In this document: piece after piece, positions 9,146 to 40,167 of the stretch | How the letters are laid out: every line of letters starts with the position of its first letter | Numbering within the stretch: position 1 is the stretch's first letter | From: Verrucomicrobiales bacterium | GTDB lineage: Bacteria > Verrucomicrobiota > Verrucomicrobiia > Limisphaerales > UBA9464 | Assembly: GCA_005805505.1 (NCBI GenBank) | Contig: SYMJ01000098.1 | Coordinates: 1 to 54,087 of the forward strand | DNA: 54,087 bases | Direction: 5' to 3' | Program-made: the position numbers and the translations under genes | The notes under the pieces: generated by a model | What the model saw: the letters and a program-made list of their open reading frames with translations, nothing else | What the model was told of the DNA's origin: nothing | The model's database searches: none

Positions 9146-9147
9146 CC

Positions 9148-10590
9148 ATGAGCCCATCCACGGAGATTCGTCAGTTTCTTCAGCAGCAACAGACCCGACG
9201 TTTGTTTTTGGGTCGCGCGTCTCAAGGCCTGGGTGCCGTGGCGCTGGGTTCCATCCTCCAACCGCGAATCCTTAAGGCGGCGAGCGCAGCCCGGACAGTG
9301 AGTGGAGCGGTGGCGTCCTTGCACTTTCCAGCGAAGGCACGGCGGGTGATTTGGCTGAGTATGGCCGGTGGTCCGTCGCATCTGGAAACCTTCGATCCCA
9401 AGCCCAAGCTGGCCGAGATGCACGGCAAGCCGATGCCCGAGTCGTTCACCAAGGGTAAGCAAATCGCCCAGCTCCAGGGGCAGAAGTTGGTTTGCTACGG
9501 ACCGCAGTTGCCCTTCAAGCGCTTCGGGAAAGCCGGTGTCGAACTGTGCGAACTCTTCACCCAATTGGGCTCGGTGGCCGATGAGATTTGCTGGGTGCGT
9601 TCCATGACGAGCGAGGCCATCAATCACGATCCGGCCCACATGTTCATGAACACGGGCTCGCAAATTGCGGGTCGCCCGAGCATGGGTTCGTGGGTGACCT
9701 ATGGATTGGGTTCGGAGGCGGAGAACTTGCCCGGTTTCGTGGTGCTGACCTCTCTTGGGCGCGGCGGCCAGAATCAGCCGATCGCGGCCCGTCAATGGGC
9801 GCCCGGCATGTTACCGAGTCGGTTTCAGGGAGTGCACTTGCGAGGCAAGGGCGATCCGGTGATGTACTTGGGCACCCCGCCGGGAGTCACCCGCGAAGGG
9901 CAGCACGAAGTGGTGCGGACGATCAACGATCTCAACCGGCAGCACGATGCCGTGGTGGATGACCCTGAGATCTCGACTCGCATCGCCCAGTACGAGATGG
10001 CTTTCCAGATGCAGGCCAGTGTGCCGGAGTTGATGGACACGGCGAGCGAGCCCGCCTCCATTCAGTCGCTCTATGGTTGCAAGCCCGGGGATGGGTCCTT
10101 CGCCTCCAACTGTCTTCTGGCCCGGCGGTTGGCTGAGCGTGGGGTGCGGTTTATTCAACTTTACCACAAGGACTGGGACCATCACGGCGAGGTGAAGCAG
10201 GGGGTCGAGTTTAAGGCCGCTGAGATCGATCGGGCGTGTATGGCGCTCATCACGGACCTCAAGCAGCGCGACATGCTCAAGGACACGCTGATCGTGTGGG
10301 CCGGCGAGTTTGGTCGCACTCCGATGAGCCAAGGCGGCAGCGGGCGCGACCACCACAATGCTGGGTTCACCATCTGGATGTGCGGCGGCGGGATTCGTCC
10401 CGGGACGGTCTATGGGGCGACCGATGAGCTGGGGTATTCGGCGGTCGATTCACCGGTAGACGTGCACGATATTCACGCGACGCTGTTGCGGCAGTTCGGC
10501 ATCGACCACACTCGATTGTCGGTGAAGTTCCAGGGCTTGGATGTGCGACTAACCGGTATCGCAGGTCGCGTCATCCAGGACATTATCTGA
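9148..10590 (+). CDS. DUF1501 family protein, Tat-exported, sulfatase/alkaline-phosphatase-like fold
   Basis: The product is 480 residues from ATG 9148 (the track's 9079 start overlaps the upstream gene and is unlikely). A twin-arginine signal, TRRLFLGRASQG, at about residues 16-27 predicts Tat export of a folded protein. The DUF1501 signature is clear: VIWLSMAGGPSHLETFDPKP near residue 70, then RSMTSEAINHDPAHMFMNTG, and EFGRTPMSQGGSGRDHHN near residue 390. The latter supplies histidines and acids like those of the alkaline phosphatase superfamily. It sits 2 bp after the PSD1 gene, the usual arrangement, and probably works with it. The 3' end overlaps the convergent propeller gene by 8 bp. 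Confidence 0.92.
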   Translation: MSPSTEIRQFLQQQQTRRLFLGRASQGLGAVALGSILQPRILKAASAARTVSGAVASLHFPAKARRVIWLSMAGGPSHLETFDPKPKLAEMHGKPMPESFTKGKQIAQLQGQKLVCYGPQLPFKRFGKAGVELCELFTQLGSVADEICWVRSMTSEAINHDPAHMFMNTGSQIAGRPSMGSWVTYGLGSEAENLPGFVVLTSLGRGGQNQPIAARQWAPGMLPSRFQGVHLRGKGDPVMYLGTPPGVTREGQHEVVRTINDLNRQHDAVVDDPEISTRIAQYEMAFQMQASVPELMDTASEPASIQSLYGCKPGDGSFASNCLLARRLAERGVRFIQLYHKDWDHHGEVKQGVEFKAAEIDRACMALITDLKQRDMLKDTLIVWAGEFGRTPMSQGGSGRDHHNAGFTIWMCGGGIRPGTVYGATDELGYSAVDSPVDVHDIHATLLRQFGIDHTRLSVKFQGLDVRLTGIAGRVIQDII

Positions 10591-12115
10591 CCGTGGGTGG
10601 GGTCTTCATCGCCGTCGCGAAGAGTCGGGTTCCGGTGGCGACGTAGAGGGTGCCGTTGGCGGCCACGGCGGTGGCGCTGATGGGCGAACCCAGGGCCACG
10701 TGTCCTAGGAGGAGTTTTTCGCGGCTCAGGGCGAAGGTCCAGAATCCGCCACGCCGGGTGCCGATATAAACTTTGCCGTCGGCCACCAGTGCTGAAGCCC
10801 AGACTTCGCCGTCCAGTTCGTGGGTCCATACGCCTTTCCCGGTGGCTGCATCAATGCAGTGGAGGGTGCGCATGGAGTCGGCGCAGAAGAGCAGTCCGTT
10901 GGCGACGGCCGGGGTGCTCATGGTGTGGCGACCCAGCGGGTACGACCACAGGGTGTTGGAGGCGCTGACGTCGCCCTGTCCGGTGGTGCGTATGCAGCGA
11001 ACCGAGGCTTCGTTCTTGCCCCAGAACCAATCGCCGCCACCGGCGACGTACATCCGGTCTCCGAGGGCGACGGGCATTCCGTAGATATTGCTGGGACCTT
11101 CGCGTCGGTTGTTGAGGAAGCTTCCGACGTTGGTCTTGGGTCCGCTGGGATCGAAGTCGAAGCGCCAGGGGTTCTTGAGGATGGCTGGTTCGGACGAGGT
11201 GTTTCCGGGGCGGTAGGGATCGAAGCCGTAGACGACGCCGTCGCCGCCGGCGAAGAGGATGCGTGGCTGGCCGTTGACGGTGGTGAGGGAGGGGGAGGAC
11301 CAGGTGCAATGGAAGATGCGTGGGGCGATGCCGAGGCCGTCCTGGGCGACCCAGCGGCCGGTGCGTTTGTCGAGCACCACGAGGCTAGGGGCCTTGGGTG
11401 TACGGATGACGCGGTGGGTGTTGTCTACGCCGGTGCTGGTGTTGATATAGAGGTAATCGCCATGGATGAGGATGGAGCTGTGGGCTCCGTCATGGGACCA
11501 GATGCCGGCCTCCCGGGTGAGGTCGAAGGACCAGAGGATGTCGGCGTCGGGCACGGCCGCGGGCACTGGCACGGGTAAGGCGTTGGTGCCACGGAGATTG
11601 AGGTAAGCGGCTTCGTTCTGGAACGGTCCTTGGTTGCCATTGGCCTGTCCGCGGAGGTCCAAGCATTGGACGACGCCGCGATTGTCGACGAGGTAGACGC
11701 GGTCGCCTTCGACGGTGACCGGCGAGGCCATGCCGGTCTTGGGCCAGTCGTGGTAAATATCCTCTTCGCGCTTGGGGACGGCCAGTTGCCATTCAATGGC
11801 TCCGGTGGCTTCGGAGAGACAGAGCAGGACGCCGCGATCGCCTTTGCGTCGGGCATCCCGTGGCAGCTCGTTGTTGGTGCCAATAAATACGCGCCCGTGG
11901 GCGACCACGGGGGTGGAGTGGGATTCGGTTCCGGAGGCACCCAGTGGAACGCTCCACCGGATGTGGGTTCCGTTGGTCGGATTGAATGTGGCCGGGAGGT
12001 TGACCTCGGGTGAGGTCATGTTCCGTGACCAGGCTTCGCCGAACTGCGGGCGATCAGCGGCCTGAAGAGACATCAGGGCCGCGAGGGTAATGACTGCGCA
12101 GGCACGGGAGAACAT
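10583..12115 (-). CDS. secreted PQQ-like beta-propeller protein
   Basis: The product is 510 residues from ATG 12115. The track start at 12154 adds 13 residues ahead of a good signal peptide (FSRACAVITLAALMSLQAADRP). The mature protein begins with FGEAWSRNMTSPE, followed by repeated PQQ-type blades: VLLCLSEATGAIEWQL, VQCLDLRGQANG, LVVLDKRTGRWVAQDG, LHCIDAATGKGVWTHEL and VYIGTRRGGFWTF. It resembles the quinoprotein alcohol dehydrogenase-like/BamB propeller superfamily without dehydrogenase active-site residues. Function is unknown. It is convergent with the DUF1501 gene and overlaps its end by 8 bp. Confidence 0.85.
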   Translation of the reverse strand: MFSRACAVITLAALMSLQAADRPQFGEAWSRNMTSPEVNLPATFNPTNGTHIRWSVPLGASGTESHSTPVVAHGRVFIGTNNELPRDARRKGDRGVLLCLSEATGAIEWQLAVPKREEDIYHDWPKTGMASPVTVEGDRVYLVDNRGVVQCLDLRGQANGNQGPFQNEAAYLNLRGTNALPVPVPAAVPDADILWSFDLTREAGIWSHDGAHSSILIHGDYLYINTSTGVDNTHRVIRTPKAPSLVVLDKRTGRWVAQDGLGIAPRIFHCTWSSPSLTTVNGQPRILFAGGDGVVYGFDPYRPGNTSSEPAILKNPWRFDFDPSGPKTNVGSFLNNRREGPSNIYGMPVALGDRMYVAGGGDWFWGKNEASVRCIRTTGQGDVSASNTLWSYPLGRHTMSTPAVANGLLFCADSMRTLHCIDAATGKGVWTHELDGEVWASALVADGKVYIGTRRGGFWTFALSREKLLLGHVALGSPISATAVAANGTLYVATGTRLFATAMKTPPTVR

Positions 12116-12563
12116 GGGTGTAAACTTAGTGCAGGGTGCGCGCCGACGGAACACCTATCCGTTGGTCGCGGGGTCGGTCCCACCTATTTACACAAAAGGG
12201 GCCACTCTTGCTTATTTTTGTGTGATTGGTGATAGGCTCCGAAGGGGAGCGGATTTTTGGGTCTGCTGTTTGGTAAGGCTCCGCGGGACCAGGCCTGCGC
12301 GCGCAGGGAAGCTTGGGGGATAATAAGCTTTCGCGCTGTGCGCGAGGGGAGGGTTTAATCGCTTCCAATGCTTGCTCCGGCCCGGTCCCGCTGCCGCTAC
12401 GAAGTTGTGGGTTGGTTCGGAGATTTCAGGGGCAGGCTCGAAAAGGGTGAATCGTGGGTTGGATTAGGGACAGGCTCCGAAGTGAGTGCGGGTGGAGGGT
12501 TGGAATAGATTTCTTCGATGCCCTGTAAGAATTCGGTCGAGGCCTACGAATCCTCTTCTGAAT
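12116..12563. other. intergenic region between propeller gene and Rpn fragment
   Basis: About 450 bp without a convincing gene. It contains the second 38-bp repeat copy (12171-12208), a 14-bp perfect palindrome cctgcgcgcgcagg (12293-12306), and two loosely similar segments around 'aggctccgaag' near 12235 and 12474. The mixture suggests decayed mobile DNA, but nothing intact. Confidence 0.5.
12171..12208. repeat. 38-bp dispersed direct repeat, copy 2
   Basis: This is the second copy of the repeat at 263-300, in the same orientation and differing at two positions near its 3' end. It lies in the 5' flank of the PQQ-propeller gene on the minus strand and about 360 bp before the Rpn nuclease fragment. 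Confidence 0.8.
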
Positions 12564-12923
12564 ATGAAACCGATAGACTTCGTGGGTGCCTGGCAATTCA
12601 CCCTCAAGCACTTCCTGCAATCCTTCCTCGAGGTAGCCTTCCCAGTGATCGCGGCGGTGATCGATTGGAAGGTTCCTCCCGTGTCGCTCGACAAGGAATT
12701 GTTGGAAATCTTGCCTGACGCAGAACCGGATCCCGAGCGCTTCGACAAGTTGATCCGGTTTCGTCTGATCAGTGGGATGGATGCCTGTCTGTGGATCCAC
12801 TTCGAGTTCTGTAATCACCCAGATCCGGACCTGGAAGATCGTCTCAACAATCATTGCCAACGCTTCTTCGACCGTTTTGGGGTGGGGGTGACGCACGTGA
12901 CCGTCTTGGCCGGTGAGAAATGA
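12564..12923 (+). pseudogene. truncated Rpn family (PD-(D/E)XK) recombination-promoting nuclease
   Basis: The frame gives 119 residues from ATG 12564. The opening KPIDFVGAWQFTLKHFLQSF, then IDWKVPPVSLDKELLEIL, LWIHFEFCNH and RFFDRFGVGVTHVTVLAGEK follow the N-terminal half of Rpn/transposase-like nucleases, including the acidic LDKE and the E of HFEF expected in the PD-(D/E)XK core. The frame ends right after VLAGEK, where full-length relatives continue for well over 100 residues. I therefore read it as a truncated remnant. A short domesticated product cannot be excluded. The location next to a dispersed repeat fits a decayed mobile region. Confidence 0.6.
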
Positions 12924-13167
12924 GGGTCAGTGGCGTGCCCGTCACCGTGCCGAGGTGCGCCACGACAAGATGGGTTACGACAGGGAGTGAACGACTAGGC
13001 CCGATAGCTGGAGCATTGTCGGTCGGATTTTTCGGCTGAAAACGTTTCGGTCACGGCCGTGCCGAGGTCGTGGGTGCGGGTCCGTGGGGCCTCGTCGATG
13101 TCCGGGCGTTCCAGTGCTCCCCAACGGTCTGCTGGGCTTTTGAGGTCTGGCGAGGTATGATTTCTGG

Positions 13168-14292
13168 ATGATCCGTTTCGGCTCGTTGGAGCTGAAGTCC
13201 AACCTGTTTCTGTCGCCGCTGGCGGGCTACACGAACTTGCCGTTCCGCCTGGTGGCGCGGGAGATCGGGGGCCTCGATTTGGCGACGACCGACCTGGTTA
13301 ACGCGAGGTCGCTCATCGAGGAAAATCCCAAGGCGTTCAAGCTCATCGAAACCAATGAGAACGATCGGCCTCTGGCGGTGCAGTTGTTCGGCTCCGTGCC
13401 CGAGGAGATGCGCGATGCGGCGGTGATGCTGCAGGAGCGGGGTGTGAGTGCGATCGACATCAACATGGGCTGCCCGGTGCGCAAGGTGTGCCGGGTGGGA
13501 GGCGGTTCGGCGATGATGGTCGAACACGAACGGACGCAGCATTTGGTGCGAACGATGGTGGATGCGTTGCGTATCCCGGTGACGGCCAAGATGCGCTTGG
13601 GTTGGGATGACGACAATTTGACGGCACCCGACCTGGTCCGCGCGCTGGAGGATGCCGGCATCGCCGGGGTATTCATTCATGGGCGGACCCGGGAGCAGGG
13701 GTTCTCGGGCTCGGTGAATCTCGTGGGCATTCGTAAGGTGGTGGAGGCGGCGCGGACGATCCCAGTGATCGGCAATGGCGACGTGACGACGCCCGAGGCG
13801 GCGGTGCACATGAGGTCCGAGACGGGGTGCGCAGGCGTGAGCGTGGGGCGTGGGGCCTTTTATGATCCTTGGATCTTCGTGCGGACGCGGGCGCTGATGC
13901 AAACGGGGGTGCTGCCGCCGGAACCGGGTATCGAGGACCGGGTTCGGGTCATGTCCCGGCACCTGGACCTGATGGTGGAGGTGTTCGGGGAGCGGCATGG
14001 CTGCGTGATGTTCCGCAAGATCGGTCCGTGGTATGCGAAGCGCTTCGGTCCGGCCAACGAGTTCAGCAAGAAGATCGTGCGGATGGAGTCCCGGGCCCAA
14101 TACCTCGAGATCGTGGACAGCTACTTGCGATGGCGTCGGCAGTTCTGCGACGAGTCGGGCCACCTACTACCGCGCTACCAGTTGGCACCGATGGTGGCCA
14201 GCTTCATGCGCGAGGCAGATGCTTCTGATGAACCTGCCAGCATCCGGCGCGAGGCGATCCCAGTGCCCAAGGGGCCGGTGGAGGTCTGGTGA
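13168..14292 (+). CDS. dusB: tRNA-dihydrouridine synthase, DusB type
   Basis: The product is 374 residues from ATG 13168. It would reduce specific uridines in the tRNA D-loop, using FMN and NADPH in the cytoplasm. The family signatures are plain: LSPLAGYTNLPFR at about 15-27, DINMGCPVRKVC with catalytic Cys about 102, KMRLGWDDDN, FIHGRTREQGFSG and VIGNGDVTTPEAA in the TIM barrel, and GRGAFYDPWIF. The C-terminal helical domain (about 260-345) binds tRNA. The length is typical for Dus proteins of this type. It is a single gene, with no operon partner in the dusB-fis arrangement known from enterobacteria. Confidence 0.93.
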   Translation: MIRFGSLELKSNLFLSPLAGYTNLPFRLVAREIGGLDLATTDLVNARSLIEENPKAFKLIETNENDRPLAVQLFGSVPEEMRDAAVMLQERGVSAIDINMGCPVRKVCRVGGGSAMMVEHERTQHLVRTMVDALRIPVTAKMRLGWDDDNLTAPDLVRALEDAGIAGVFIHGRTREQGFSGSVNLVGIRKVVEAARTIPVIGNGDVTTPEAAVHMRSETGCAGVSVGRGAFYDPWIFVRTRALMQTGVLPPEPGIEDRVRVMSRHLDLMVEVFGERHGCVMFRKIGPWYAKRFGPANEFSKKIVRMESRAQYLEIVDSYLRWRRQFCDESGHLLPRYQLAPMVASFMREADASDEPASIRREAIPVPKGPVEVW

Positions 14293-28195: not shown

Positions 28196-28831
28196 ATGTC
28201 GGACATTTTCCCAAGGTGGACCAACAAAATACCGTTGATGGTCGGTGTGGCAGCGGCCGTGGTGCTGCCAACCGTGATCGCGGGGATCACCTATTACTTT
28301 ACCCCGAAGTACACTCGCGTGGGTTACCAGCCCAAGCAGCCGGTTGCGTTTTCTCACGCCATCCACTCGGATCAGCTGGGGATGGACTGCCGCTATTGCC
28401 ACAACGGCGTCGAAAAGTCGTGGTTCTCCAACATCCCGGCTTCGGAGACGTGCATGCGTTGCCACTCCATCGTGGCCAAGGATTCCCCGAAGTTGAGTTT
28501 GGTTCGCGAGTCTTACTCCAGTGGAAAGCCCATTCCTTGGGTGCAGATCCACAAGACCCCCGACTACGTTTATTTTAACCACTCCGTTCACGTAAACCGT
28601 GGTATTTCCTGTGTGAAATGCCATGGCGAGATCCAGAAAATGGACGAAGTGTACCATGCCAAGCCCCTCTCGATGGGCTTCTGTCTGGAGTGCCATCGGG
28701 AGCCCGAGAAGCACATCCGGCCCAATGATCTTGTGACCAAGCTCGATTGGAACGGTGAGTTCGACGGCAAAAAAGCCGTTCACGACTGGAAGGTTCAACC
28801 TGGCCAGAGCTGTTCCACCTGCCACCGCTGA
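28196..28831 (+). CDS. actA: alternative complex III subunit ActA, pentahaem cytochrome c
   Basis: The product is 211 residues from ATG 28196. One N-terminal membrane anchor (about 12-34) precedes a periplasmic domain with five CxxCH motifs: CRYCH (65), CMRCH (86), CVKCH (139), CLECH (163) and CSTCH (206). That is the ActA pattern of alternative complex III (cytochrome c7/NrfH-like fold). It passes electrons from quinol oxidation to ActE or directly to an oxidase. It is the first gene of the operon, and its TGA overlaps the ATG of actB by one base. Confidence 0.92.
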   Translation: MSDIFPRWTNKIPLMVGVAAAVVLPTVIAGITYYFTPKYTRVGYQPKQPVAFSHAIHSDQLGMDCRYCHNGVEKSWFSNIPASETCMRCHSIVAKDSPKLSLVRESYSSGKPIPWVQIHKTPDYVYFNHSVHVNRGISCVKCHGEIQKMDEVYHAKPLSMGFCLECHREPEKHIRPNDLVTKLDWNGEFDGKKAVHDWKVQPGQSCSTCHR

Positions 28832-31800
28832 TGAAGACGATTCCCCCGATTTGCAACGAACCGGAGACCGGTCCGAAGTACTGGCGCTCCCTAGAGCAGC
28901 TGGCTGACCAACCCGATTTCCGTCAGTGGATGGAGCGCGAGTTTCCGGCCGGCGCGAGCATCGCTCCGGATGGTGAAAGCCGTCGCGACTGGATGAAGCT
29001 CATGTCTGCGAGCTTCCTTTTGGCGGGTTTGGGTGGCATGGGCACCGGATGCCGTCGCCCTGAGGAGGTTTTGACGCCCTTTGCCAAGCAGCCCGAGGAT
29101 TACGTTTACGGAAAGGCTCAGCATTTCGCCACATCTATGCCCTTGCGGGGCAGCGCGGTCGCGCTGACGGTGAAGTCTAGCGACGGTCGCCCGACTAAGA
29201 TCGAGGGCAATTCGTTGGTCCCTGGTGCCAATGGAGGCACCGATGCCTTTGCTCAGGCTGCGATCCTGAACTTGTACGATCCCGATCGCGCCCACCGGCA
29301 CACCCGGGGCGGTAATGATTGCAAGATTGAGGCCGTCCGTGATGCCTTGGCCGAAGTGGCCAAGTCGGCGTTGGCTAAGCACGGTGAAGGTCTGGCGTTC
29401 TTTGTAGAGCGTTCCTCTTCCCCGTCCCGTGCGCGTCTTCAGAAACTCATTGCCGAGAAGTACCCGAAATCGACGTGGCATGCCTACGAGTCGGTCGATT
29501 TCACTGCGGCTGATGCGGCGTATTCTCAACTGTGTGGCACACCGGTCCATGCACTGGTTCACCTAGAAAAAGCTCGCCGAATTTTGTCGCTCGATTGCGA
29601 TTTCATCGGTTCTGAGCAAGACGCTCATCGCAATATCCGCGGTTTTGCCCTCGGGCGGAAATCCGCCGATGACGGCATGAACCGGCTCTACGTGGTTGAG
29701 TCAATGATGTCCTTGACCGGTGGCAATGCCGACCATCGCCTTCGGGTCAAGCCGAGCGAGGTGCTGAAGGTGGCGGCCGCGGTGGCTGCCGAACTCGGAG
29801 TCGCCGGGGTGGCATCTCCTTCGGGTGCGTTCTCAGCTTGGGCTGCAGCGGTGGCCAAGGATTTGAAGGAAGCGGGCAAAGGTGCGGTCGTGGTGGCCGG
29901 TTATTCCCAGCCTCCTGCGGTGCACGCTCTGGCAGCAGCCATCAACTCGGTGTTGGGTGCGGTGGGGTCCACGGTGACCTTGGTGCAACCGACAGAACCG
30001 GTTGCTCTGGGTATTCAGGAGCTCACGGCCTCTTTGAGCGCAGGCAAGGTGTCTACCTTGGTTATCCTTGGTGGCAATCCCGCCTACAATGCGCCGGTCG
30101 ATCTCCAGTTTGAGGCAGTGGCCAAAAAAGCGGGTACGGTGATTCGCCTCGGCTACTACGAAGACGAGACAGCGGCCTTGGCGACCTGGCATCTGGCTGG
30201 AACCCATTTCCTCGAGTCTTGGGGCGATGCCCGCACGGCCGACGGAACCGTGGTGCCGGTTCAACCGCTGGTCGAACCGCTCTTTGGTGGCCTGACCGAG
30301 CTCGAAGTGTTGGCGCGTCTCTTAGGTGAGTCGAAGGTTTCGCCCTATGACATCGTCCGCGAAACCCTGAAGGGTTTGGGCGCGACCGATGACGCCGCTT
30401 GGAAGCGTTTCTTGCACGACGGTTTCCTGACGGACAGCGCCTCTGCGGCCGTGTCCGCTTCAGTCAATGCCTCGGCCGCTGCGTCGGCTCTGGCCGCTCA
30501 CAAGCCGCTGTCCGGTGACATCGAAGTGGTGCTTCATCGCGATGGCTCGGTCGATGATGGTCGTTTTGCCAACAATGGCTGGCTCCAAGAGATGCCCGAC
30601 TCCATCACGAAGGTGACTTGGGACAACGTGGTCATGATGTCCCAGAAGACCGCCAAATCTCTGGGGTTGCCCACCAAACGTTCCGGCAAGATCCCTGACG
30701 ACTTGAGCCCGGCCGAGGCGGCCGACGCCAAGGATGGTCAATACGATCAACCCGTGGTGAAGATCACCGTGGGTGGTCATAGCGTCGAGGGTCCGGTCTG
30801 GATCCAACCGGGTTTGGCCGATGGAACCGTCGCGCTGGCGCTGGGTTACGGACGCCGAGTCGTGGGTCGCGTGGGTCGTGGAGTAGGCTTCGATGCCTAC
30901 AGCCTCTTCCAGTCCACTTCTCGTCATCTCACGGCCGGCAAGGTGGAGAGGGTTTTCCGCAAGCATCGCTTGGCGGTGACCCAAGAACACGGCCTCATGG
31001 AAGGTCGCCCGGTTATTCGCGAGGCGCATCTCGAGCAGTTCAAGAAGAGCCCCAAGTTCGCCCAGAACATGGATCTCGAGGCGCATTTCCCGGGCTACGT
31101 TCCCTTTAAGGAAGAGACCGATGGGCGCAACGCCGAGAAGCGTCCCCAAAATATTTACGAGCATCCCTACGATCAGAATCCGGAGACGGCCTCGAAGATT
31201 CATCAGTGGGGCATGGTCATCGATTTGCAAACGTGCGTGGGTTGCTCCGCTTGCGTGGTGGCTTGTCAGAGCGAAAACAACATCCCCATCGTCGGCAAGG
31301 ACCAGGTGGCCCGTGGCCGCGAGATGCACTGGATGCGCATTGATCGCTATTACAGCCACAATCCGGATGCCGATGTGAACGCGGAGTTGGCGGCGGAGGA
31401 TCCGCAAATGGCGATCCAACCGATGTTCTGCCAGCACTGCGAAGCAGCCCCCTGCGAAAGCGTCTGCCCGGTGAACGCGACCGTTCACGACGAAGAAGGT
31501 GTCAACGTGATGGCCTACAACCGCTGCATCGGCACGCGGTACTGCGCCAACAACTGCCCCTATAAGGTTCGTCGCTTCAATTGGTTCGATTTCAACAAGC
31601 GCGAAAGCGACTACGGTGCGGCTCAAGACCAGCACCTAGTCAACACGGGCAATTTGTACAAGGGGCCGCTCGGGGTGAACCGCAACACGGAACCGGAGTG
31701 GGAGATCATTAAGTTGATCAAGAACCCGGATGTCACGGTCCGTATGCGCGGCGTGATGGAGAAGTGCACGCTGTGCGTGCAGCGCATCCAGCAAGGCAAA

Positions 31801-32181
31801 ATTGCCCAGAAGGTCAAGGCGGGTAACAGCGGTGACGTGGCTGTGCGAGATGGCGCCATTAGGACCGCCTGCCAACAAGCTTGCCCCGCGGACGCCATCG
31901 TCTTCGGCAACATGCTCGACGCCCAGAGCGAGGTCGTGAAAGCCAAGGCCAATCCCCGGAACTATTCGGTCCTCGGCTTCTTGGATACCCGTCCTCGAGT
32001 CACTTACTTGGCTCGCGTGCGTAATCCGAACCCGGTGGTCCTTGACCTCGAGAAGCGCAAGACGCCCGACAGCCAGCGCGACTACGAGCGTTTCCGTCAC
32101 GAGTCCCCATTTCAAGAACACTCACATGGTCACGATGCCTCGCATCAATCCGCGACTCAGGCGGGGAAGGGAGCGGTCTAA
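28831..32181 (+). CDS. actB: alternative complex III subunit ActB, molybdopterin oxidoreductase-like and Fe-S fusion
   Basis: The product is 1116 residues from ATG 28831. The N-terminus carries the variant Tat motif of ActB ([22 protein letters not shown], about 48-70). Residues about 85-720 resemble the molybdopterin oxidoreductase fold but are not expected to hold the cofactor. The C-terminal third is a ferredoxin-like domain: [12 protein letters not shown] from Cys802, [32 protein letters not shown] and CTLCVQR, with a late [10 protein letters not shown]. These would bind [4Fe-4S] and one [3Fe-4S] cluster. A His-rich tail ends the protein. The stop overlaps actC (TAATG). Confidence 0.93.
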
Positions 32182-33611
32182 TGGCTAGCTCCGGAAAATC
32201 CGCCGTCGTCAAGGCACCTGAACCGCCGGCCGAACTGGTCCGAGAGTCTTTGGTTCTCAACAACCGATCTCTCGGTTGGATTACCAATGCCATCGCGGGG
32301 GTTTGCGAAAAGCCCATGCCGATGTGGTGGTGGCCTGCCTTCATCGTCTCGGTGGGCGGCATGCTTACGATGTTCGCTCTCATCGCCTATCTGGTCTCGA
32401 CTGGTGTGGGCGTGTGGGGTCTCAATCATCCGGCCGCCTGGGCCTGGGACATCACCAACTTCGTGTTCTGGATCGGCATTGGCCACGCCGGAACTTTGAT
32501 TTCAGCGGTGCTCTTCTTGCTCCGACAGAAATGGCGAACCTCGGTCAATCGGGCCGCCGAGGCCATGACCATCTTCGCGGTGGCTTGCGCCGGCATCTTC
32601 CCGGTTTTCCATACGGGTCGTGTCTGGTTCGCTTTGTTGCCGGGTTACCTACTCCCGGCTCCCAATGCCAACGCGATCTGGCCGCAGTTCCGCTCGCCGT
32701 TGCTGTGGGATGTGTTCGCGGTGTCTACTTACGGTACGGTCTCGCTGTTGTTCTGGTATGTGGGACTCATCCCTGACCTAGCCACCTTGCGTGATCGTTC
32801 TAAAGGGGTGATGCGCCGTTTCTTCTACGGACTGTTCTCCTTGGGTTGGACCGGCTCCAATCGCCATTGGAGCAATTACGAGAAGGCCTACCTGCTCTTG
32901 GCCGGTCTGAGCACGCCGTTGGTGTTGTCCGTGCACTCTATTGTGTCGTTCGACTTCGCCGTCTCCGTCGTTCCTGGATGGCACACCACCATCTTCCCGC
33001 CGTACTTCGTGGCTGGGGCGATTTTCTCGGGCTTCGGCATGGTGCTCACCTTGCTAATCCCGCTGCGATCCCTCTTCAAACTCGAAGACATCGTGACCCT
33101 TCGACACGTAGACCTCATGTGCAAGGTGCTCTTGGCCACCGGATCCATCGTAGGATACGCCTACGGCATGGAGTTCTTCATCGCCTGGTATGGCGGTAGC
33201 CCTTACGAGCTCTACGCCTTCAAGAATCGCGCCTTTGGTCCTTACTGGTGGAGTTATTGGGCCATGATCTCGTGCAACGTAATCAGCCCGCACTTCTTCT
33301 GGTTTAAGAAACTTCGCACCAGCGTGGTTTTCGTTTGGATCGTCTCCATCTTCGTGAACATCGGCATGTGGTTTGAGCGTTTCGTGATCATCGTGACCTC
33401 GCTCCACCGGGATTATCTCCCCTCGAGCTGGGGTTACTTCACCCCGAGTTGGGTCGACATAATGACCTTCGCCGGCAGCTTCGGTCTCTTCATGACACTG
33501 TTCTTGTTGTTCATCCGCTTCCTGCCGGTTATCGCGATCAGCGAAGTCAAAGGCGTGACGCCTCAGGCGGATCCCCACCATCCGCTGGGTGGCGCCAAGG
33601 GACACCACTAA
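32181..33611 (+). CDS. actC: alternative complex III subunit ActC, NrfD-like quinol-binding membrane protein
   Basis: The product is 476 residues from ATG 32181, starting within the actB stop codon. About ten transmembrane helices are seen, as in NrfD/PsrC proteins, including [45 protein letters not shown] and [22 protein letters not shown]. These are the strongly conserved stretches of ActC near the quinol site. It oxidises menaquinol or ubiquinol at the membrane and hands electrons to ActB. The spacing to actD is 17 bp. Confidence 0.93.
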
Positions 33612-33628: not shown

Positions 33629-34174
33629 ATGAATTCCAATCGTTCCAAGCCGCACGGTCTTCTGGCCGAGTTCCACACGGCTGCGGATATTTTCGAAGCG
33701 GCGATGCGTTGCCGTGACGCCGGATTTACCCAGTGGGATGTGTACACCCCATTTCCGATCCACGGCATGGATGAAGCCATGGGGCTTCGCAAGTCGCCCG
33801 TCGGGTGGTTCACCTTCTGCGGTGGTTTCACCGGGTTCTTCACCGGGATGACCATGATCTGGTACATGAACAAGTTCGACTACCCCTTGGTGGTCGGCGG
33901 CAAGCCCCTCTTCACGCCGTTGTACGCGTTCCCGGTCAGTTACGAGATGACCATTCTGTTGAGTGCCTTCGGGACGCTCTTTGGCATGTTCTTCCTGAAC
34001 CAATTGCCCAAGTTCTACAATCCGCTCTTCAAGAACGAGCGGTTCAAAAAATCAACGGATGATCGGTTCTTCCTCTGCATCGAGGCAACCGACCCAAAGT
34101 TTGGAATGGACGTGACCCGCACCTTCCTGACCGAAAAATGTCACGCTGCGGTCGTTGAACTTGTGGAGGACTGA
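33629..34174 (+). CDS. actD: alternative complex III subunit ActD (DUF3341)
   Basis: The product is 181 residues from ATG 33629; the track's start at 33449 lies within actC. DUF3341 features are HGLLAEFHTAADIFEAAMRCRDAGFTQWDVYTPFPIHGMDEAMG, two transmembrane helices (about 58-80 and 100-125), and a C-terminal soluble part with DRFFLCIEATDPKF. It is a structural subunit that contacts ActC and ActF. The stop abuts the actE start directly. Confidence 0.92.
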   Translation: MNSNRSKPHGLLAEFHTAADIFEAAMRCRDAGFTQWDVYTPFPIHGMDEAMGLRKSPVGWFTFCGGFTGFFTGMTMIWYMNKFDYPLVVGGKPLFTPLYAFPVSYEMTILLSAFGTLFGMFFLNQLPKFYNPLFKNERFKKSTDDRFFLCIEATDPKFGMDVTRTFLTEKCHAAVVELVED

Positions 34175-34798
34175 ATGCGCACCTTCCTGAAATACTTTTT
34201 CACCGCCTATGTTCTGGCGGTCGCCCTCGTGGTCGGAATCGCTGGTTTCCGTGGTTCCAAGAGCACTAAACCCCCGTTGGAGGTTTTCCCCGATATGGAT
34301 CGACAGCCCAAGCTGCGTCCACAAACCACTACCAAGTTTGCCGCTTGGTCTGACGGACAAACCTCGCGTCCCCACCCGGCTGGCACTGTGTCTCGTGAGT
34401 CGAACTGGGAAGAGAATGCCTTCAATACCGGCCGTCAGGCGGGCACGGTGGTCGAAGTGATGCCCCTCGAGGTGACTGCTGCGGTGCTCAAGCGGGGGCA
34501 GGAGCGCTATTCGATCTACTGCCAACCCTGTCACGGGGTTGTTGGCGATGGCAAGGGGATCACCAGCAAGTACGGAATGGGCAACACGGCTAGCTTGCAT
34601 CAAGAGCGTCTGATCAAGACCCCGGATGGAGATATCTTCAACACCATCGGCAACGGCAAGAACACGATGATGGGCTACGCTTCGGCGATTCCTGTCGCCG
34701 ATCGGTGGGCCGTAGTGGCCTATGTGCGGACGCTGCAACTGAGCCGCCTCGCCTCAGAATCTGAAATCCCGGCAGCAATCCTGCCCACCATCAAGTAA
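34175..34798 (+). CDS. actE: alternative complex III subunit ActE, mono-haem cytochrome c
   Basis: The product is 207 residues from ATG 34175, immediately after the actD stop. An N-terminal hydrophobic anchor or signal (about 5-24) precedes a cytochrome c domain with haem motif CQPCHG (Cys116) and a probable axial Met in NTMMGYASAIP. In ACIII, ActE is the electron exit haem that hands electrons to a soluble or oxidase-bound cytochrome. It is followed by actF after 6 bp. Confidence 0.9.
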   Translation: MRTFLKYFFTAYVLAVALVVGIAGFRGSKSTKPPLEVFPDMDRQPKLRPQTTTKFAAWSDGQTSRPHPAGTVSRESNWEENAFNTGRQAGTVVEVMPLEVTAAVLKRGQERYSIYCQPCHGVVGDGKGITSKYGMGNTASLHQERLIKTPDGDIFNTIGNGKNTMMGYASAIPVADRWAVVAYVRTLQLSRLASESEIPAAILPTIK

Positions 34799-34804
34799 GG
34801 ATCC

Positions 34805-36112
34805 ATGAACGCATTTTCACGACAAACCAAGTCTTGGATGGCTCTGGGTGGGGTGGTAGCCGTCGCTGCCATTGCCTTGTTCGGTACCCTGCCCACCTTG
34901 GGCGCCGATGCCGGGTCTGCCGCCCACTCCGCTCAAGAAGTGGTCCACGGCGCGGTTGGCCACGGTGGAGCCGACCATGGGCATGCCGCCGTTTCCGTCT
35001 TTTCCCTCAAGCAAATCGCTCACAGCTATCTCACGGCCTACATGTTCTGCCTGAGCCTGTGCGTGGGCTCTCTGTTCCTCACCCTGGTACACCATTTGTT
35101 TGATGCCGGTTGGTCGGCCTCCATCCGTCGGGTGACCGAGACGGTCGCCAGCTTGCTCTTTCCCTGGATGCTCATTCTGGCCTTGCCGATCCTCGGCTTC
35201 GCTTGGACGGGCAACCTCCATGCTTGGTTTAAGATTAACCCGGCGGACGATCATTCGCTCGACGTCAAGAAGGTGCTCTTCAACCCAATGGCGTTCACCG
35301 TCCTGGTGCCGGTGCTCATCACGGTGCTGGGTCTCCTAGCCCGCCAGATCCGCGCGTGGTCGATTGCTCAAGATAAAGACGGTGCGGCCCATTGGACGAG
35401 CAAGTCCCGTAAGCTATCCGCCGGCGGCATTTTCATCTTCGCCTTCGGGGTGACGCTGCTGTGCTTCCTGTTAATGAAGTCCTTGCAGCATCAGTTCTTC
35501 AGCACGATGTACGGCGTCTACTTCTTCGCGGGCAGTGTCTGGACCACGCTCATTACTTTGTACCTGTTGACGATGTGGTTGGCTCAGCCGGGTCGCCCTC
35601 TTGAAAAAGTGTATTTCAAGCGCCAGCAGCAAGATTTGGCAGTGCTGTTCTTTGCCTTCACCGTTTTCTACGCCTATATCCACTTCTCGCAGTACTTCCT
35701 CATTTGGAATGCCGCCCTTCCTGAAGAAACCTTCTGGTACGTTCGCCGCGAGGTGGGTTCCTGGAAGTGGGTCGGAATGCTCATCCTCTTTGGGCACTTC
35801 TTCGTGCCGTTCCTGCTACTGCTCAATCAAGACATCAAGCGCAACATGTCGGTGATGATTCCTGTCGGTGCCTGGGCTTGGCTCATGCAGTACGTTGACA
35901 TGACCTACAATGTGATGCCGGTCCTCCATCCGGAGGGACTGCATCTGACCTTGTGGGATCCGATCTTCTGGATGGGTATGTCGGTCCTGTTGGGTCGACT
36001 CTTCTGGTCCGAATATCAGAAGAACCCCCCGTATCCGCTCAAGGATCCGCGGCTCCAGGAAGCCATCGTCCACCATGAGGTGCCGGCTCCCGGCGCGTCG
36101 GCCGCCCACTAG
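34805..36112 (+). CDS. actF: alternative complex III subunit ActF, multi-helix membrane protein
   Basis: The product is 435 residues from ATG 34805. After an N-terminal hydrophobic helix there is a His-rich linker (VHGAVGHGGADHGHAAV), then about ten transmembrane helices. ActF-type stretches include YLTAYMFCLSLCVGSLFLTLVHHLFDAGWSASIRR, FSQYFLIWNAALPEETFWYVRR and MQYVDMTYNVMP. ActF is a distant NrfD-fold relative that pairs with ActC. The His-rich stretch is an oddity whose meaning is unknown. The next gene follows after 20 bp. Confidence 0.9.
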   Translation: MNAFSRQTKSWMALGGVVAVAAIALFGTLPTLGADAGSAAHSAQEVVHGAVGHGGADHGHAAVSVFSLKQIAHSYLTAYMFCLSLCVGSLFLTLVHHLFDAGWSASIRRVTETVASLLFPWMLILALPILGFAWTGNLHAWFKINPADDHSLDVKKVLFNPMAFTVLVPVLITVLGLLARQIRAWSIAQDKDGAAHWTSKSRKLSAGGIFIFAFGVTLLCFLLMKSLQHQFFSTMYGVYFFAGSVWTTLITLYLLTMWLAQPGRPLEKVYFKRQQQDLAVLFFAFTVFYAYIHFSQYFLIWNAALPEETFWYVRREVGSWKWVGMLILFGHFFVPFLLLLNQDIKRNMSVMIPVGAWAWLMQYVDMTYNVMPVLHPEGLHLTLWDPIFWMGMSVLLGRLFWSEYQKNPPYPLKDPRLQEAIVHHEVPAPGASAAH

Positions 36113-36132: not shown

Positions 36133-36501
36133 ATGAGTTCCTCGAATTGCTGTTCCCCAGCGTCCAAGACGATTCTCGCCTATCTCGTAGGCGGGCTGGG
36201 TTCCTTCTTGATCATTGGCGCGCTGGCTTGGTTGGTGGTACGAGAGCCCGTCTCCGCCATTGATGCCGAGCGGGTCGCCCAGCGGGTGAAGTTTCGCACG
36301 GAAGTGGAAGCTTCTAGTTCACCCAAGGTCACAGGTTATGCCTTGGATACGGATGCCTTGGCCAAGGGCAACAAGGTTTATCACGTTCCGATCACTCGGG
36401 CTTTGGAGATGGCTGCCCAAGATTTCAAAGATCCCGCCGCCGGTCGCGCCAAGCTCATCCAGCGTCTGGAAGACAAGTCCAAGCAGCAGTCCTTTGAGTG
36501 A
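36133..36501 (+). CDS. small membrane protein of unknown function between actF and ccoS
   Basis: The product is 122 residues from ATG 36133. It starts SSSNCCSPASK, has one transmembrane helix (TILAYLVGGLGSFLIIGALAWLVV, about 13-36), and then a charged, probably periplasmic tail of about 85 residues ending DKSKQQSFE. No haem or metal motif is present beyond the adjacent cysteines at the N-terminus. I do not recognise the family. Its place between ACIII and cbb3 genes, with a gap of only 4 bp to ccoS, suggests a small subunit or an assembly factor that links the two complexes. This is inference from position. Confidence 0.75.
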   Translation: MSSSNCCSPASKTILAYLVGGLGSFLIIGALAWLVVREPVSAIDAERVAQRVKFRTEVEASSSPKVTGYALDTDALAKGNKVYHVPITRALEMAAQDFKDPAAGRAKLIQRLEDKSKQQSFE

Positions 36502-36505
36502 ACCC

Positions 36506-36694
36506 ATGTCGGTGATCGCATTCATCCTGTTAGGAAGCGTCGTGCTGCTGCCTGCGGCCGCCTTGATGGCGCTGCGGTGGGCGGCCTCGTCGGGTCAGTT
36601 CCGCTGCCCAGACAAAGCGGCGCTGTTGCCGTTTGATGAAGTGGAGCCCGTGGGATTGGAAACCGACCGCATTTTGGGAGGAAACCGTCGTTGA
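36506..36694 (+). CDS. ccoS: cbb3-type cytochrome oxidase maturation protein CcoS-like
   Basis: The product is 62 residues from ATG 36506; the track shows it only as the tail of a longer false frame. One hydrophobic helix (SVIAFILLGSVVLLPAAALMALRWAA) is followed by SSGQF and an acidic stretch (LLPFDEVEP). This matches the CcoS/FixS pattern of a single helix, then SGQF, then an acidic segment. CcoS is needed for cofactor insertion into cbb3 oxidase. It lies directly ahead of ccoN, and its stop overlaps the possible TTG start of that gene. Confidence 0.75.
   Translation: MSVIAFILLGSVVLLPAAALMALRWAASSGQFRCPDKAALLPFDEVEPVGLETDRILGGNRR
36676..36682 (+). promoter_or_regulatory. ribosome binding site of ccoN, ambiguous start
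   Basis: GGGAGGA lies eight bases before a TTG at 36691 and 14 bases before an ATG at 36697, both in the ccoN frame. The spacing favours TTG, which would overlap the ccoS stop; the codon type favours ATG. The two products differ by two residues. Confidence 0.5.
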
Positions 36695-36696
36695 GC

Positions 36697-38202
36697 ATGA
36701 TCAAACAGTCGCAAACGTTGCGGGCTTTATTGCCGGGTGATGCCCTCACCGGTGGCGGTACCGATGTCGGCAACAGGGCAGCGCTGTCTGAGATCGACGC
36801 CTCGTGTCGGGTGCCGGTGCTCTTCTTTTTCCTCAGTGGGTTGGCTTGGCTTTTGGCCGGCACCGTTTTGGCATTGGTGGCGAGTATTAAGCTGCACACC
36901 CCGGGTTTCTTGGCGGGTTGGGAATGGCTCACTTTTGCCAATGTCCGTACGGCTCACCTCAATACGGTCATTTACGGGTTCGCCTCGCAGATTTCTGTGG
37001 GTGTGACCATTTGGTTGATGTGCCGCCTGTGCCGCATTCCGCTGGTGGCTCCCGGTTTGGTCACCGTGGCCAACTTGTTCTACAATATTGGCGTCACCGT
37101 GGGCGTGGGCGGAATCCTGATCGGTGATTCCACGGCCATCGAGTGGTTGGAGATGCCGCGCTATGCCACTCCGATCCTTTTTATTAGCTACGCGCTGATC
37201 GCGGTCTGGACGATTGTCACCTTCCGCTTGCGGGCCGAGCGACATTTGTACGTCTCCCAGTGGTACCTTTTAGCTGCGGTCCTCTGGTTCCCGTGGTTGT
37301 ACGGAACCGCACAGGTGATGCTGCTTATCGAGCCGGTCCGGGGCGTGGTTCAGGCGGCCGTCAACTGGTGGTTCGCGCACAATGTGCTCGGACTGTGGTT
37401 CACGCCGATTGGTTTGGCTTCCATCTACTACTTTATTCCCAAGGTCATCGGTCGTCCGATTCATAGTTATTACCTCAGTGTCTTGGGTTTCTGGTCCTTG
37501 GCGCTGTTCTACAACTGGAACGGCATGCACCACTTGGTGGGAGGTCCATTGCCCTCCTGGATGATTACCGTGAGCATCGTCGCGTCGGTCATGATGCTCA
37601 TTCCCGTCATCACGGTGGCCATCAACCATCATTTCACGATGCTCGGCCATTTCGGGAAGCTGAAACACAGTCCGACACTGAGATTCATGGTATTCGGAGC
37701 CGTTTCCTACACCCTAGCGAGCCTTCAAGGTGTGGCCAGCGCGCTCCGCAGTGTGAGCGAAGTGACCCATTTCACCCATCACACCATTGCTCATGCCCAT
37801 CTGGGAATGTACGCGTTCTTCAGCATGGTGATGTTCGGTGCGATGTACTACATCCTGCCGCGCATCACTCAGCGGGAATGGCCTTCCAATAGCCTCATAT
37901 CGCTGCACTTCTGGGGCGTTGCCTTGGGAATCGTGCTGTATGTGGTTCCGATGAGCATCATGGGTTTCATTCAGGGAACGATGCTCAACGATGCCGCCGT
38001 CCGCTTCCTCGATGTCGTCCAGTTTACCCTGCCGTGGCTGAAGCTGCGAACCCTCGCGGGTCTGTTGTTGGCCGCCGGCCATGTGGCCTTTGTCATTAAC
38101 GTCGGTTGGCTGCTGGTGCGGATGTTTGAACCCTACCGCAAGCCGGTGGTGCGCATCTTGACCGGTGAGGCTGAAACGGTGGCCGCCGCCAAACAACCAT
38201 GA
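36697..38202 (+). CDS. ccoN: cbb3-type cytochrome c oxidase subunit I
   Basis: The product is about 501 residues from ATG 36697 (TTG 36691 is the alternative). Twelve or more transmembrane helices carry the haem-copper oxidase core of the cbb3 class. A haem b histidine lies in RTAHLNTVIYGFAS, and a CuB histidine in WWFAHNVLGLWFTP. The cross-linked Tyr candidate lies in HSYYLSVLGFW, and two CuB histidines in NGMHHLVGGPLPSW. The C-terminal haem ligands are in FTHHTIAHAHLGMYAFF. It reduces oxygen to water and should pump protons. Its stop overlaps the ccoO start by 4 bp (ATGA). Confidence 0.92.
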   Translation: MIKQSQTLRALLPGDALTGGGTDVGNRAALSEIDASCRVPVLFFFLSGLAWLLAGTVLALVASIKLHTPGFLAGWEWLTFANVRTAHLNTVIYGFASQISVGVTIWLMCRLCRIPLVAPGLVTVANLFYNIGVTVGVGGILIGDSTAIEWLEMPRYATPILFISYALIAVWTIVTFRLRAERHLYVSQWYLLAAVLWFPWLYGTAQVMLLIEPVRGVVQAAVNWWFAHNVLGLWFTPIGLASIYYFIPKVIGRPIHSYYLSVLGFWSLALFYNWNGMHHLVGGPLPSWMITVSIVASVMMLIPVITVAINHHFTMLGHFGKLKHSPTLRFMVFGAVSYTLASLQGVASALRSVSEVTHFTHHTIAHAHLGMYAFFSMVMFGAMYYILPRITQREWPSNSLISLHFWGVALGIVLYVVPMSIMGFIQGTMLNDAAVRFLDVVQFTLPWLKLRTLAGLLLAAGHVAFVINVGWLLVRMFEPYRKPVVRILTGEAETVAAAKQP

Positions 38203-38834
38203 GTTACGGACCGCTACTTTTCTTGGGAATCCTCTTCACCTTGGCGACGAGCTGGGTGGGATTAATTCTCCTTCCCCACCGTCAGATGGGGGCGTTGGGC
38301 CAGCACACCGACACCAACACGGCGGCCATCTACCCGGCGGTCCGTGCGGGTGAGGCCCAGCAGGGCGCTGAACACTATCGCTCTCTAGGCTGTGTCTACT
38401 GCCACACGCAGCAAGTGCGCCCGGAGGGTTATGGCTCGGACATCGAGCGCGGGTGGGGGCGTCGTCGGACGGTGAGTCGCGACTACATTCAAGACAAGAC
38501 GGTCATGCTTGGGACCATGCGCACCGGCCCGGACTTGACCAATATCGGGGAGCGTCAGGCCGATGCCGCCTGGCATTATCGCCATCTTTATAATCCGCAA
38601 ATTACCAGCCCTGGCAGCATTATGCCCCCGCATGGTTTCCTGTTTGACGTCCGCGTCATCGGGCAAGCCGGTCGTTCTACCAATGCGTTGGTTCTGGAAG
38701 GAACGTTTGCGCCGCCGGCCGGTCAGGAAGTGATTCCGACGCGCCGGGCCGAGCAGTTGGTCGCCTATTTGCGCAGTTTGAAGTCCTCTGGAGACCTGCC
38801 CGAAGCGCCGGTTAAGAAGGAGGAGGCCAAGTGA
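38199..38834 (+). CDS. ccoO: cbb3-type cytochrome c oxidase subunit II, mono-haem
   Basis: The product is 211 residues from ATG 38199. A membrane anchor (about 5-26) precedes a cytochrome c domain with haem motif CVYCHTQQVRPEGYGSDIERGWG (Cys65). It then has the CcoO-type block MRTGPDLTNIGERQADAAWHYRHLYNP and GSIMPPHGFL, with the Met ligand. It passes electrons to ccoN. It overlaps ccoN upstream and ccoP downstream (GTGA). Confidence 0.92.
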   Translation: MSYGPLLFLGILFTLATSWVGLILLPHRQMGALGQHTDTNTAAIYPAVRAGEAQQGAEHYRSLGCVYCHTQQVRPEGYGSDIERGWGRRRTVSRDYIQDKTVMLGTMRTGPDLTNIGERQADAAWHYRHLYNPQITSPGSIMPPHGFLFDVRVIGQAGRSTNALVLEGTFAPPAGQEVIPTRRAEQLVAYLRSLKSSGDLPEAPVKKEEAK

Positions 38835-39649
38835 ACAATTCCCAGGAAACTCCCAACGCCTCCTCCGGGTTAGATCGCGGTGAAAACCACGACGTCACCG
38901 AGTTGCATGCCGCCGTTCTGCGCGAGAAGCCCGATCCGGTGGAGGGTTTTGAGCCGGTGAACTTGTGGATGGTGGCCGGCATCGCCGGACTGCTTTTCTG
39001 GGGTGGCGCGTATCTCACCCAGTACAGCGGTCGCTTTGAGGCCATGGAGTTCTCGGAGTTACCGCATGGCAAGCCGGCTCCCGTGGCCACCGTGGCCGCC
39101 GATCCTTTGGCTGCGGTAAAGCGGGACGGCATGATCGCTTACAATGCGGTTTGCGCGTTGTGCCATGGCGAAGACGGTGCCGGCAAAGCCGGAGTGGCTC
39201 CGGTGCTGGCCGGCTCGGATTGGGTGAATGCCGAGGGTCCGAATCGCCTTCTGCGTATTGTTCGTCACGGACTCAAGGGCACGGTGAAGGTCAACAAGGA
39301 CGTCACTTGGAACCCAGCCAATGATGCCGGCATCGTCATGGGCTCCCAATGGGAGGCCATCGGTGGCACCAACGAGAAGCTGGCCGCAGTCCTTACCTAC
39401 ATCCGGTCTTCGTGGGGCAACACCGGAACGGCGGTCACTCCACAAATGGTGGCGGATGGCCTTGCTCCGGTAAAAGACCGTTCGGCCGAAGCCAACTGGA
39501 CTCAGGAAGAATTGCTGCAAGTACCTGCCGGGGGGGCAGCGGCTCCGGCTGTGGCTGCTGCTGCGGCTACTCCCGATCAGCTCAAGGCGCAACTGCAGGC
39601 CCTTCCGGCCGAGCAGCGGCAGGCGATTCTCAAGGAGTTGTCCAAGTGA
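38831..39649 (+). CDS. ccoP: CcoP-like mono-haem cytochrome c subunit
   Basis: The product is 272 residues from GTG 38831, overlapping the ccoO stop, with AAGGAGGAGG just upstream. A cytosolic segment (to about 43) and one membrane helix (VNLWMVAGIAGLLFWGGAYL) resemble CcoP. The periplasmic domain has only one CxxCH (CALCHGEDG, Cys108), where classical CcoP has two, and a probable Met ligand in IVMGSQW. Residues about 220-272 are an Ala/Gln-rich tail that I do not recognise. It probably receives electrons from ActE or a soluble cytochrome and passes them to CcoO. Confidence 0.8.
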   Translation: MNNSQETPNASSGLDRGENHDVTELHAAVLREKPDPVEGFEPVNLWMVAGIAGLLFWGGAYLTQYSGRFEAMEFSELPHGKPAPVATVAADPLAAVKRDGMIAYNAVCALCHGEDGAGKAGVAPVLAGSDWVNAEGPNRLLRIVRHGLKGTVKVNKDVTWNPANDAGIVMGSQWEAIGGTNEKLAAVLTYIRSSWGNTGTAVTPQMVADGLAPVKDRSAEANWTQEELLQVPAGGAAAPAVAAAAATPDQLKAQLQALPAEQRQAILKELSK

Positions 39650-39659
39650 GTGGGTGGGA

Positions 39660-39713
39660 GGCTGAACCGTTCGGTGGTTCTACCTCCCGGTTGCTTCGAC
39701 AGTGGGTTCAGCC
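39660..39713. repeat. 9-bp inverted repeat after ccoP
   Basis: ggctgaacc at 39660-39668 and ggttcagcc at 39705-39713 form a perfect stem with a 36-base loop just after the ccoP stop. No T tract follows. It may mark the end of the respiratory operon or stabilise its 3' end. Confidence 0.35.
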
Positions 39714-39813
39714 CTCGAGCGGTTTTGATTTTCGCGGAGCTTGGCTCCTTGGGCCGAGATTAGGATTTTGTCAGGGATTGCCGACGATTGTCCGAAATGA
39801 TTTCTTTTGTCCT

Positions 39814-40167
39814 ATGAATGGGTGGAAGGTCTTCAGTTGGCGATGGGTTCTCGTTGGGCTACTGTGTGTTCTGGGGGTGGGTTGTGAGACCTACGGCAAG
39901 GCAGACTGGAAGTCCCGGGTAGGCCATTACTCGTGGGATCAAGCGATCGAAGAGTTGGGTCCGCCCGAATCCGAGGCCAAGACTTCCGATGGATCTCGCG
40001 TGGCTAGTTGGGTGATCTCTCGCTCCCGGACGTACAGCACTGCCATCCGTGGCTCGATGTACTGGAGTTGGAGTGGCCAGGATGTCACCACCACGGCCGA
40101 ATCGCACTTGCTGCTCACCTTCAATGCCCAAGGCCAACTCAAGGCCTGGAAACGAATTTATAAATGA
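39814..40167 (+). CDS. small putative lipoprotein of unknown function
   Basis: The product is 117 residues from ATG 39814; the track's longer frame from 39349 runs antiparallel to good coding sense inside ccoP. An N-terminal hydrophobic stretch WVLVGLLCVLGVGC ends in a lipobox-like cysteine (Cys24), though glycine at -3 is not ideal. The body contains WDQAIEELGPPE and LLLTFNAQGQLKAWKR. This resembles small SmpA/BamE-like lipoproteins, which have 'G.P......G....W.Y' patterns, but the match is loose. It overlaps the ftsB-like gene by 4 bp. Confidence 0.65.
   Translation: MNGWKVFSWRWVLVGLLCVLGVGCETYGKADWKSRVGHYSWDQAIEELGPPESEAKTSDGSRVASWVISRSRTYSTAIRGSMYWSWSGQDVTTTAESHLLLTFNAQGQLKAWKRIYK

Follow-up and report, generated by a model that had tools for sequence, protein, structure and literature searches.

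Between the genes of an alternative complex III (ACIII) and those of a cbb3 oxidase, a small reading frame raises the question of what its 122-aa product is and to which of the two complexes it belongs. The window, i.e. the whole stretch of DNA analysed (54,087 nucleotides of a contig from a Verrucomicrobiales bacterium), carries a single same-strand gene run from actA (28196) to ccoP (39649). The frame, here named actG, is part of this run. It begins after a gap of 20 bp behind the end of actF (36112), and a gap of 4 bp separates its end from the start of ccoS (36506). The genes of the run are listed below.

actA, 28196..28831, plus strand: multiheme cytochrome c with repeated CxxCH; in related loci, homologues lie upstream of ActB
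actB, 28831..32181, plus strand: molybdopterin-like and iron-sulfur subunit; homologues in register
actC, 32181..33611, plus strand: NrfD-like membrane subunit; 51-68% identity across families in alignment A3
actD, 33629..34174, plus strand: Pfam PF11821 ActD, E 2.3e-63
actE, 34175..34798, plus strand: monoheme cytochrome c; Pfam Cytochrome_CBB3 and Cytochrom_C
actF, 34805..36112, plus strand: NrfD-like membrane subunit; homologues in register
actG, 36133..36501, plus strand: 122 aa, probable single-helix accessory subunit of ACIII; homologues in 54/59 relatives, profile matches to 8k9e chain G
ccoS, 36506..36694, plus strand: cbb3 maturation protein; Pfam FixS E 0.001 (below cut-off), TIGR00847 E 0.035
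ccoN, 36691..38202, plus strand: cbb3 oxidase subunit I; TIGR00780 E 1.7e-67 (below curated cut-off), Pfam COX1 E 3.5e-75
ccoO, 38199..38834, plus strand: Pfam FixO E 1.3e-20
ccoP, 38831..39649, plus strand: Pfam Cytochrome_CBB3 E 5.9e-8

Unlike the adjoining ActD, ActF (34805-36112) gave no Pfam or NCBIfam match. CcoS (36506-36694) is a divergent copy that stayed under the FixS and TIGR00847 cut-offs, and in many related loci CcoS was undetected at the corresponding place. A small putative lipoprotein (GVGCETYG) is encoded at 39694-40167, flanked by ccoP and a DivIC-like gene; it had no Pfam match.

The frame at 36133-36501 is a genuine conserved gene. Intact ActG homologues, none with an internal stop, were found in 54 of 59 relatives (E<=1e-3), and dN/dS of actG within the genus was 0.046-0.10. 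Among the relatives without a match, G002 and G036 also lacked ActD, and G039 had ActD only as a 65-residue fragment; in G047 and G058 the search found nothing, yet the protein was present once the slot was read. In the order-level loci, two of which run into a contig end on one side, actG lay between ActF and CcoN in 40/40 cases. The fixed position between the ACIII and oxidase genes, as described in the first-pass annotation, was thereby borne out.

The same annotation had described a Cys-Cys N-terminus, one helix and a charged tail of about 85 residues, and the frame agrees with this: Cys6-Cys7 is followed by a single hydrophobic segment and then by ~85 charged residues. The AlphaFold model (mean pLDDT 77.8) has helices at residues 9-37, 42-67, 87-97 and 101-116. 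Three features were distinguished within the protein.

Predicted transmembrane helix, residues 9-37, 36157..36243, plus strand: AlphaFold; block pLDDT 80-91 over residues 11-40; hydropathy window from residue 17
Family signature VPITRALEMAAQDF, residues 85-98, 36385..36426, plus strand: alignments A1, A2 and A4; P86 and A90 invariant
Lineage-specific C-terminal extension, residues 100-122, 36430..36498, plus strand: invariant Phe/Tyr-Glu end

The signature VPITRALEMAAQDF corresponds to HIPIDRAMDLIVE in Chloroflexus ActG, and the core common to the family reads Leu-x-x-Tyr-x-[Trp/Val]-x-[Asp] ... Gly-x-[Val/Tyr]-[Arg/His]-[Leu/Ile]-Pro-[Ile/Val]-x-x-Ala-[Met/Leu]-[Glu/Asp]-[Leu/Met]. In alignment A1 (n=29) the C-terminus was FE in 21 sequences and YE in 8, and most of the shorter class-level ActGs have no C-terminal extension. 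The Cys-Cys pair was kept in 15/29 order-level sequences as against 1/51 elsewhere. The lineage-specific features of this ActG are its Cys-Cys pair, which is partly conserved, and the extension that ends in [FY]E. A lipoprotein reading of the Cys pair was considered and rejected, since the pair precedes the helix and is not conserved. No heme or Fe-S motif (CxxCH or other) occurs in the 122-aa sequence.

Direct searches did not name the protein. None of the Pfam and NCBIfam models recognised it, a single-sequence search of the PDB gave nothing significant, and Pfam/NCBIfam scans of 26 family members gave weak, scattered matches without agreement. The AlphaFold model, a single helix with small pieces at pTM 0.37, had no PDB match by Foldseek. 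Iterated profiles did give a name. The order-level profile (29 sequences) had its best PDB match in 8k9e_G, which is ActG, at an E-value of only 0.08. With class- and phylum-level homologues added, all from the phylum itself, the same chain was matched at E 1.5e-5 (runner-up 0.17). The wider profile, which derives partly from the surveyed loci themselves, again had 8k9e_G as its top match (E 1.1e-7); its runners-up were ion channels (E 4e-5 or weaker), with no stretch passing alone. Aligned by hhalign with Chloroflexus ActG and caa3-linked relatives, the order-level family gave 98.8% probability over 42 columns. A comparison involving alignment A5 was discounted, as A5 itself contains an ActG fragment. 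Between the window protein alone and 8k9e_G the similarity was not significant, so that the link is transitive, via profiles. The statement that the protein belongs to no recognised family therefore holds for Pfam and NCBIfam and fails at the level of profile comparison.

The matched chain is ActG of the photosynthetic ACIII of Chloroflexus aurantiacus (chain G of PDB 8k9e, 8k9f, 8x2j and 9ilt; Caur_0627 is the actG of its Cp operon). In the Chloroflexus operon, actABCDEFG, actG comes straight after actF; in the respiratory operon of that organism actG is followed by SCO and COX genes (PMC3150298). Both proteins have one helix, a place after actF, the sequence P-[IV]-x-x-A-[ML]-[ED]-[LM] with a preceding Tyr, and no redox motif. 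Chloroflexus ActG differs in having 112 aa, no C-terminal extension and no oxidase behind the Cp operon, and its similarity to the window protein is detectable only through intermediate profiles. Profile homology (transitive) to a structurally identified chain, a gene directly after actF, one helix and the absence of a cofactor motif were all found, and for the identity as ActG the sequence evidence and the gene order agree. We therefore read the 122-aa protein as a divergent ActG, an anchored accessory subunit that would stabilise ACIII and line its oxidase-facing side, with a probability of about 0.82. The earlier guess of a small accessory subunit gains support from this homology; its qualification as one not described for either complex is not supported, as ActG is a named ACIII subunit (PMC3150298, PMC5928083).

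The distribution of the family was surveyed with ActC as bait, a choice that makes the denominator independent of ActG itself. Eighty ACIII loci were obtained from public genomes, 61 of them with room behind actF. The record titles name mainly Acidobacteria as hosts of the 80 loci, besides Planctomycetes, Armatimonadota, KSB1, Krumholzibacteria and others; since many of the records are metagenome bins, single titles are possibly wrong. A few of the hosts are Verrucomicrobiota. The phylum-only profile matched in the slot after actF in 48/61 loci and had no off-slot match among the 8,834 ORFs of those loci. With the wider profile the slot was matched in 57/61 loci, 46 of them with a CuA (caa3/aa3-type) oxidase, 2 with cbb3 and 9 with no oxidase seen in range. 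The ActG-like proteins encoded beside SCO and CuA oxidase genes in Acidobacteria, Planctomycetes and others share the slot, the helix and the motif SYGWVDxxxGxVRIPIxRAMELL. They differ from the window protein in that they are often longer before the signature (PPEPRLQ), have Gly-Leu-Pro after it, and accompany CuA and not cbb3 oxidases.

Within the phylum (289 genomes), ActD was present in 62/62 genomes with ActG (E<1e-8), and ActG was found in 0/188 genomes free of ActD. The Fisher p-value of this co-occurrence (1e-36) is overstated by the relatedness of the genomes. ActG was undetectable in 39/101 ActD-positive genomes; in those ActG-less loci whose slot was read, mostly another one-helix protein stood there. 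A weak ActG match in G202 (L130) was dropped because it sits in an unrelated protein. In G079, G082, G085 and other f26/g34 genomes the ActD matches were weak (E 1e-9 to 1e-19), and in L236 (G079), the one such locus that was read, ActF was weak and ActB unmatched. The f26/g34 genomes appear to carry an unusual or diverged ACIII-like cluster.

The expectation that the gene would be present with cbb3 and absent with caa3 was contradicted. ActG stands beside CuA oxidases in most phyla sampled, so that the predicted absence with caa3 fails; 46 ActG-like proteins with CuA compare with 2 with cbb3, and both kinds occur within the phylum. Two genomes (G076 and G201) have two ACIII loci each, one combining ActG with cbb3 and one combining ActG with CuA. 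Mapped on the ActC tree (86 loci), the type of oxidase takes two changes, a switch to cbb3 in Verrucomicrobiae and a reversion (L118, G066), and ActG was kept through both. ActG follows ACIII, and it stayed when Verrucomicrobiae swapped an A-type for a cbb3 oxidase. The 122-aa protein is an ACIII subunit and not a link specific to ACIII and cbb3. In the literature ActG has been described as Chloroflexus-specific and not in Rhodothermus (PMC9316378), while Rhodothermus ActG was found by mass spectrometry, without density, in a study that also reports actG to be missing from some act clusters (PMC5928083). The ActG of Rhodothermus marinus, with one predicted helix, is likewise described as an accessory protein encoded in the act cluster (PMC5928083). 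The locus survey favours a broad distribution of ActG over the Chloroflexus-only view, with the order of the window and further families as additions.

Some loci carry a c-type cytochrome domain at this position. In L127 and L233, both of one genus, a single protein joins ActG to a c-type cytochrome domain (Pfam E 1e-7 to 1e-10), and the ActG part is unmistakable, with the signature present. In L228, L229 and L231, where ActG is undetectable, a one-helix slot protein carries a fused c-type cytochrome (Pfam shown for L228). L221, L223 and L230 have a bare one-helix protein in the ActG slot. Cytochrome-fused ActG or slot proteins occur in both CuA-type and cbb3-type ACIII loci.

ActG-cytochrome fusions, L127 5947-6831 and L233 4742-5431, orientation as printed
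Slot proteins with a c-type cytochrome domain, L228 5253-6047, L229 5549-6325 and L231 5300-6142, orientation as printed

A further arrangement was seen in L237 (G130), where nosZ-like and nosD/F/Y/L-like ORFs lie on the same strand at 7456-14289, between actF and actG-ccoNOP. The corresponding region of L125 carries a like nos-type cluster, and by the appearance of their sequences both are nitrous oxide reductase clusters.

A tentative placement of ActG in the complex follows. Its one transmembrane helix would anchor it beside the membrane subunits, and the conserved tail, comprising a helix, a short Tyr-x-[Trp/Val]-x-Asp hairpin and a [Arg/His]-[Leu/Ile]-Pro-[Ile/Val]-x-x-Ala-Met-[Glu/Asp]-Leu helix, may pack on the complex. 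The tail is most likely periplasmic, where ActE would pass electrons on; the cytochrome fusions suggest this side for the C-terminus, because a fused cytochrome must be periplasmic. The stretch behind the helix has a slightly greater K+R content than the stretch in front, so that the positive-inside rule leans a little against a periplasmic tail. Between the two Chloroflexus complexes ActG is exchanged along with ActA, B and E, whereas both share C, D and F (PMC9316378). From this joint exchange and from the cytochrome fusions we infer a position near the electron exit. ActG has no redox centre of its own; it probably lends stability to ACIII and forms part of the side turned towards the downstream oxidase. 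In the Chloroflexus structure, ActG and ActI are said to contribute to stability. A role at the contact between ACIII and the oxidase is possible and cannot be cbb3-specific. A bolder form of this idea makes ActG a near-universal coupling subunit at that contact, kept through the change from A-type to cbb3, able to gain a cytochrome domain as a tethered carrier, and in this order docking on cbb3 with a newly gained [FY]E tail; we regard it as doubtful.

A dedicated ACIII-cbb3 coupling subunit, as the first-pass annotation suggested, whose Phe/Tyr-Glu tail would dock on CcoN, CcoO or CcoP, could account for the fixed position of actG between the genes of the two complexes and for the order-specific extension with its invariant [FY]E end. 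It would also fit G130, where actG adjoins ccoNOP and is separated from actF by the nos-type cluster, and the cytochrome c domain on slot proteins of some cbb3-type loci (L228, L229, L231). Against it, ACIII loci of many phyla pair the family with CuA oxidases, as does a second ACIII locus in each of two genomes of Verrucomicrobiota, and one Chloroflexus operon has actG but no oxidase (PMC3150298). Given these CuA-linked and oxidase-free loci, linking to cbb3 is not the basic function of ActG, and we consider a dedicated coupling subunit unlikely. That the protein is a transient ACIII assembly factor, absent from the mature complex, would agree with Rhodothermus ActG being seen by mass spectrometry and unresolved in the map (PMC5928083), but is very improbable, since four PDB structures of the Chloroflexus complex contain a resolved chain G, so that this homologue is a bound subunit. 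It is hardly credible that the protein is CcoQ/FixQ, CcoH or some other small subunit or maturation factor of cbb3: CcoQ/FixQ and CcoH/FixH are also small, with one helix and encoded near ccoN, actG adjoins ccoS and ccoN, and 1/26 family members matches Pfam FixQ weakly (E 0.003), but the window protein matched none of FixQ, FixH and FixS in Pfam and has no significant match to CcoQ/FixQ or CcoH/FixH, whose distribution is unrelated, and its family occurs with CuA oxidases in loci free of cbb3 genes and with ActD alongside in all 62 genomes.

The reading as a divergent ActG concerns a subunit that has no Pfam or NCBIfam model and on whose existence outside Chloroflexus the papers conflict. A sequence signature for ActG is now given, and it is useful for annotation. 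The ActG-cytochrome fusions provide a concrete hint of where ActG is located. With one slot occupied across many phyla and the gene surviving the oxidase change, cultured Verrucomicrobiota and Acidobacteria can serve to test what ActG does, be it for stability or for contact with the oxidase.
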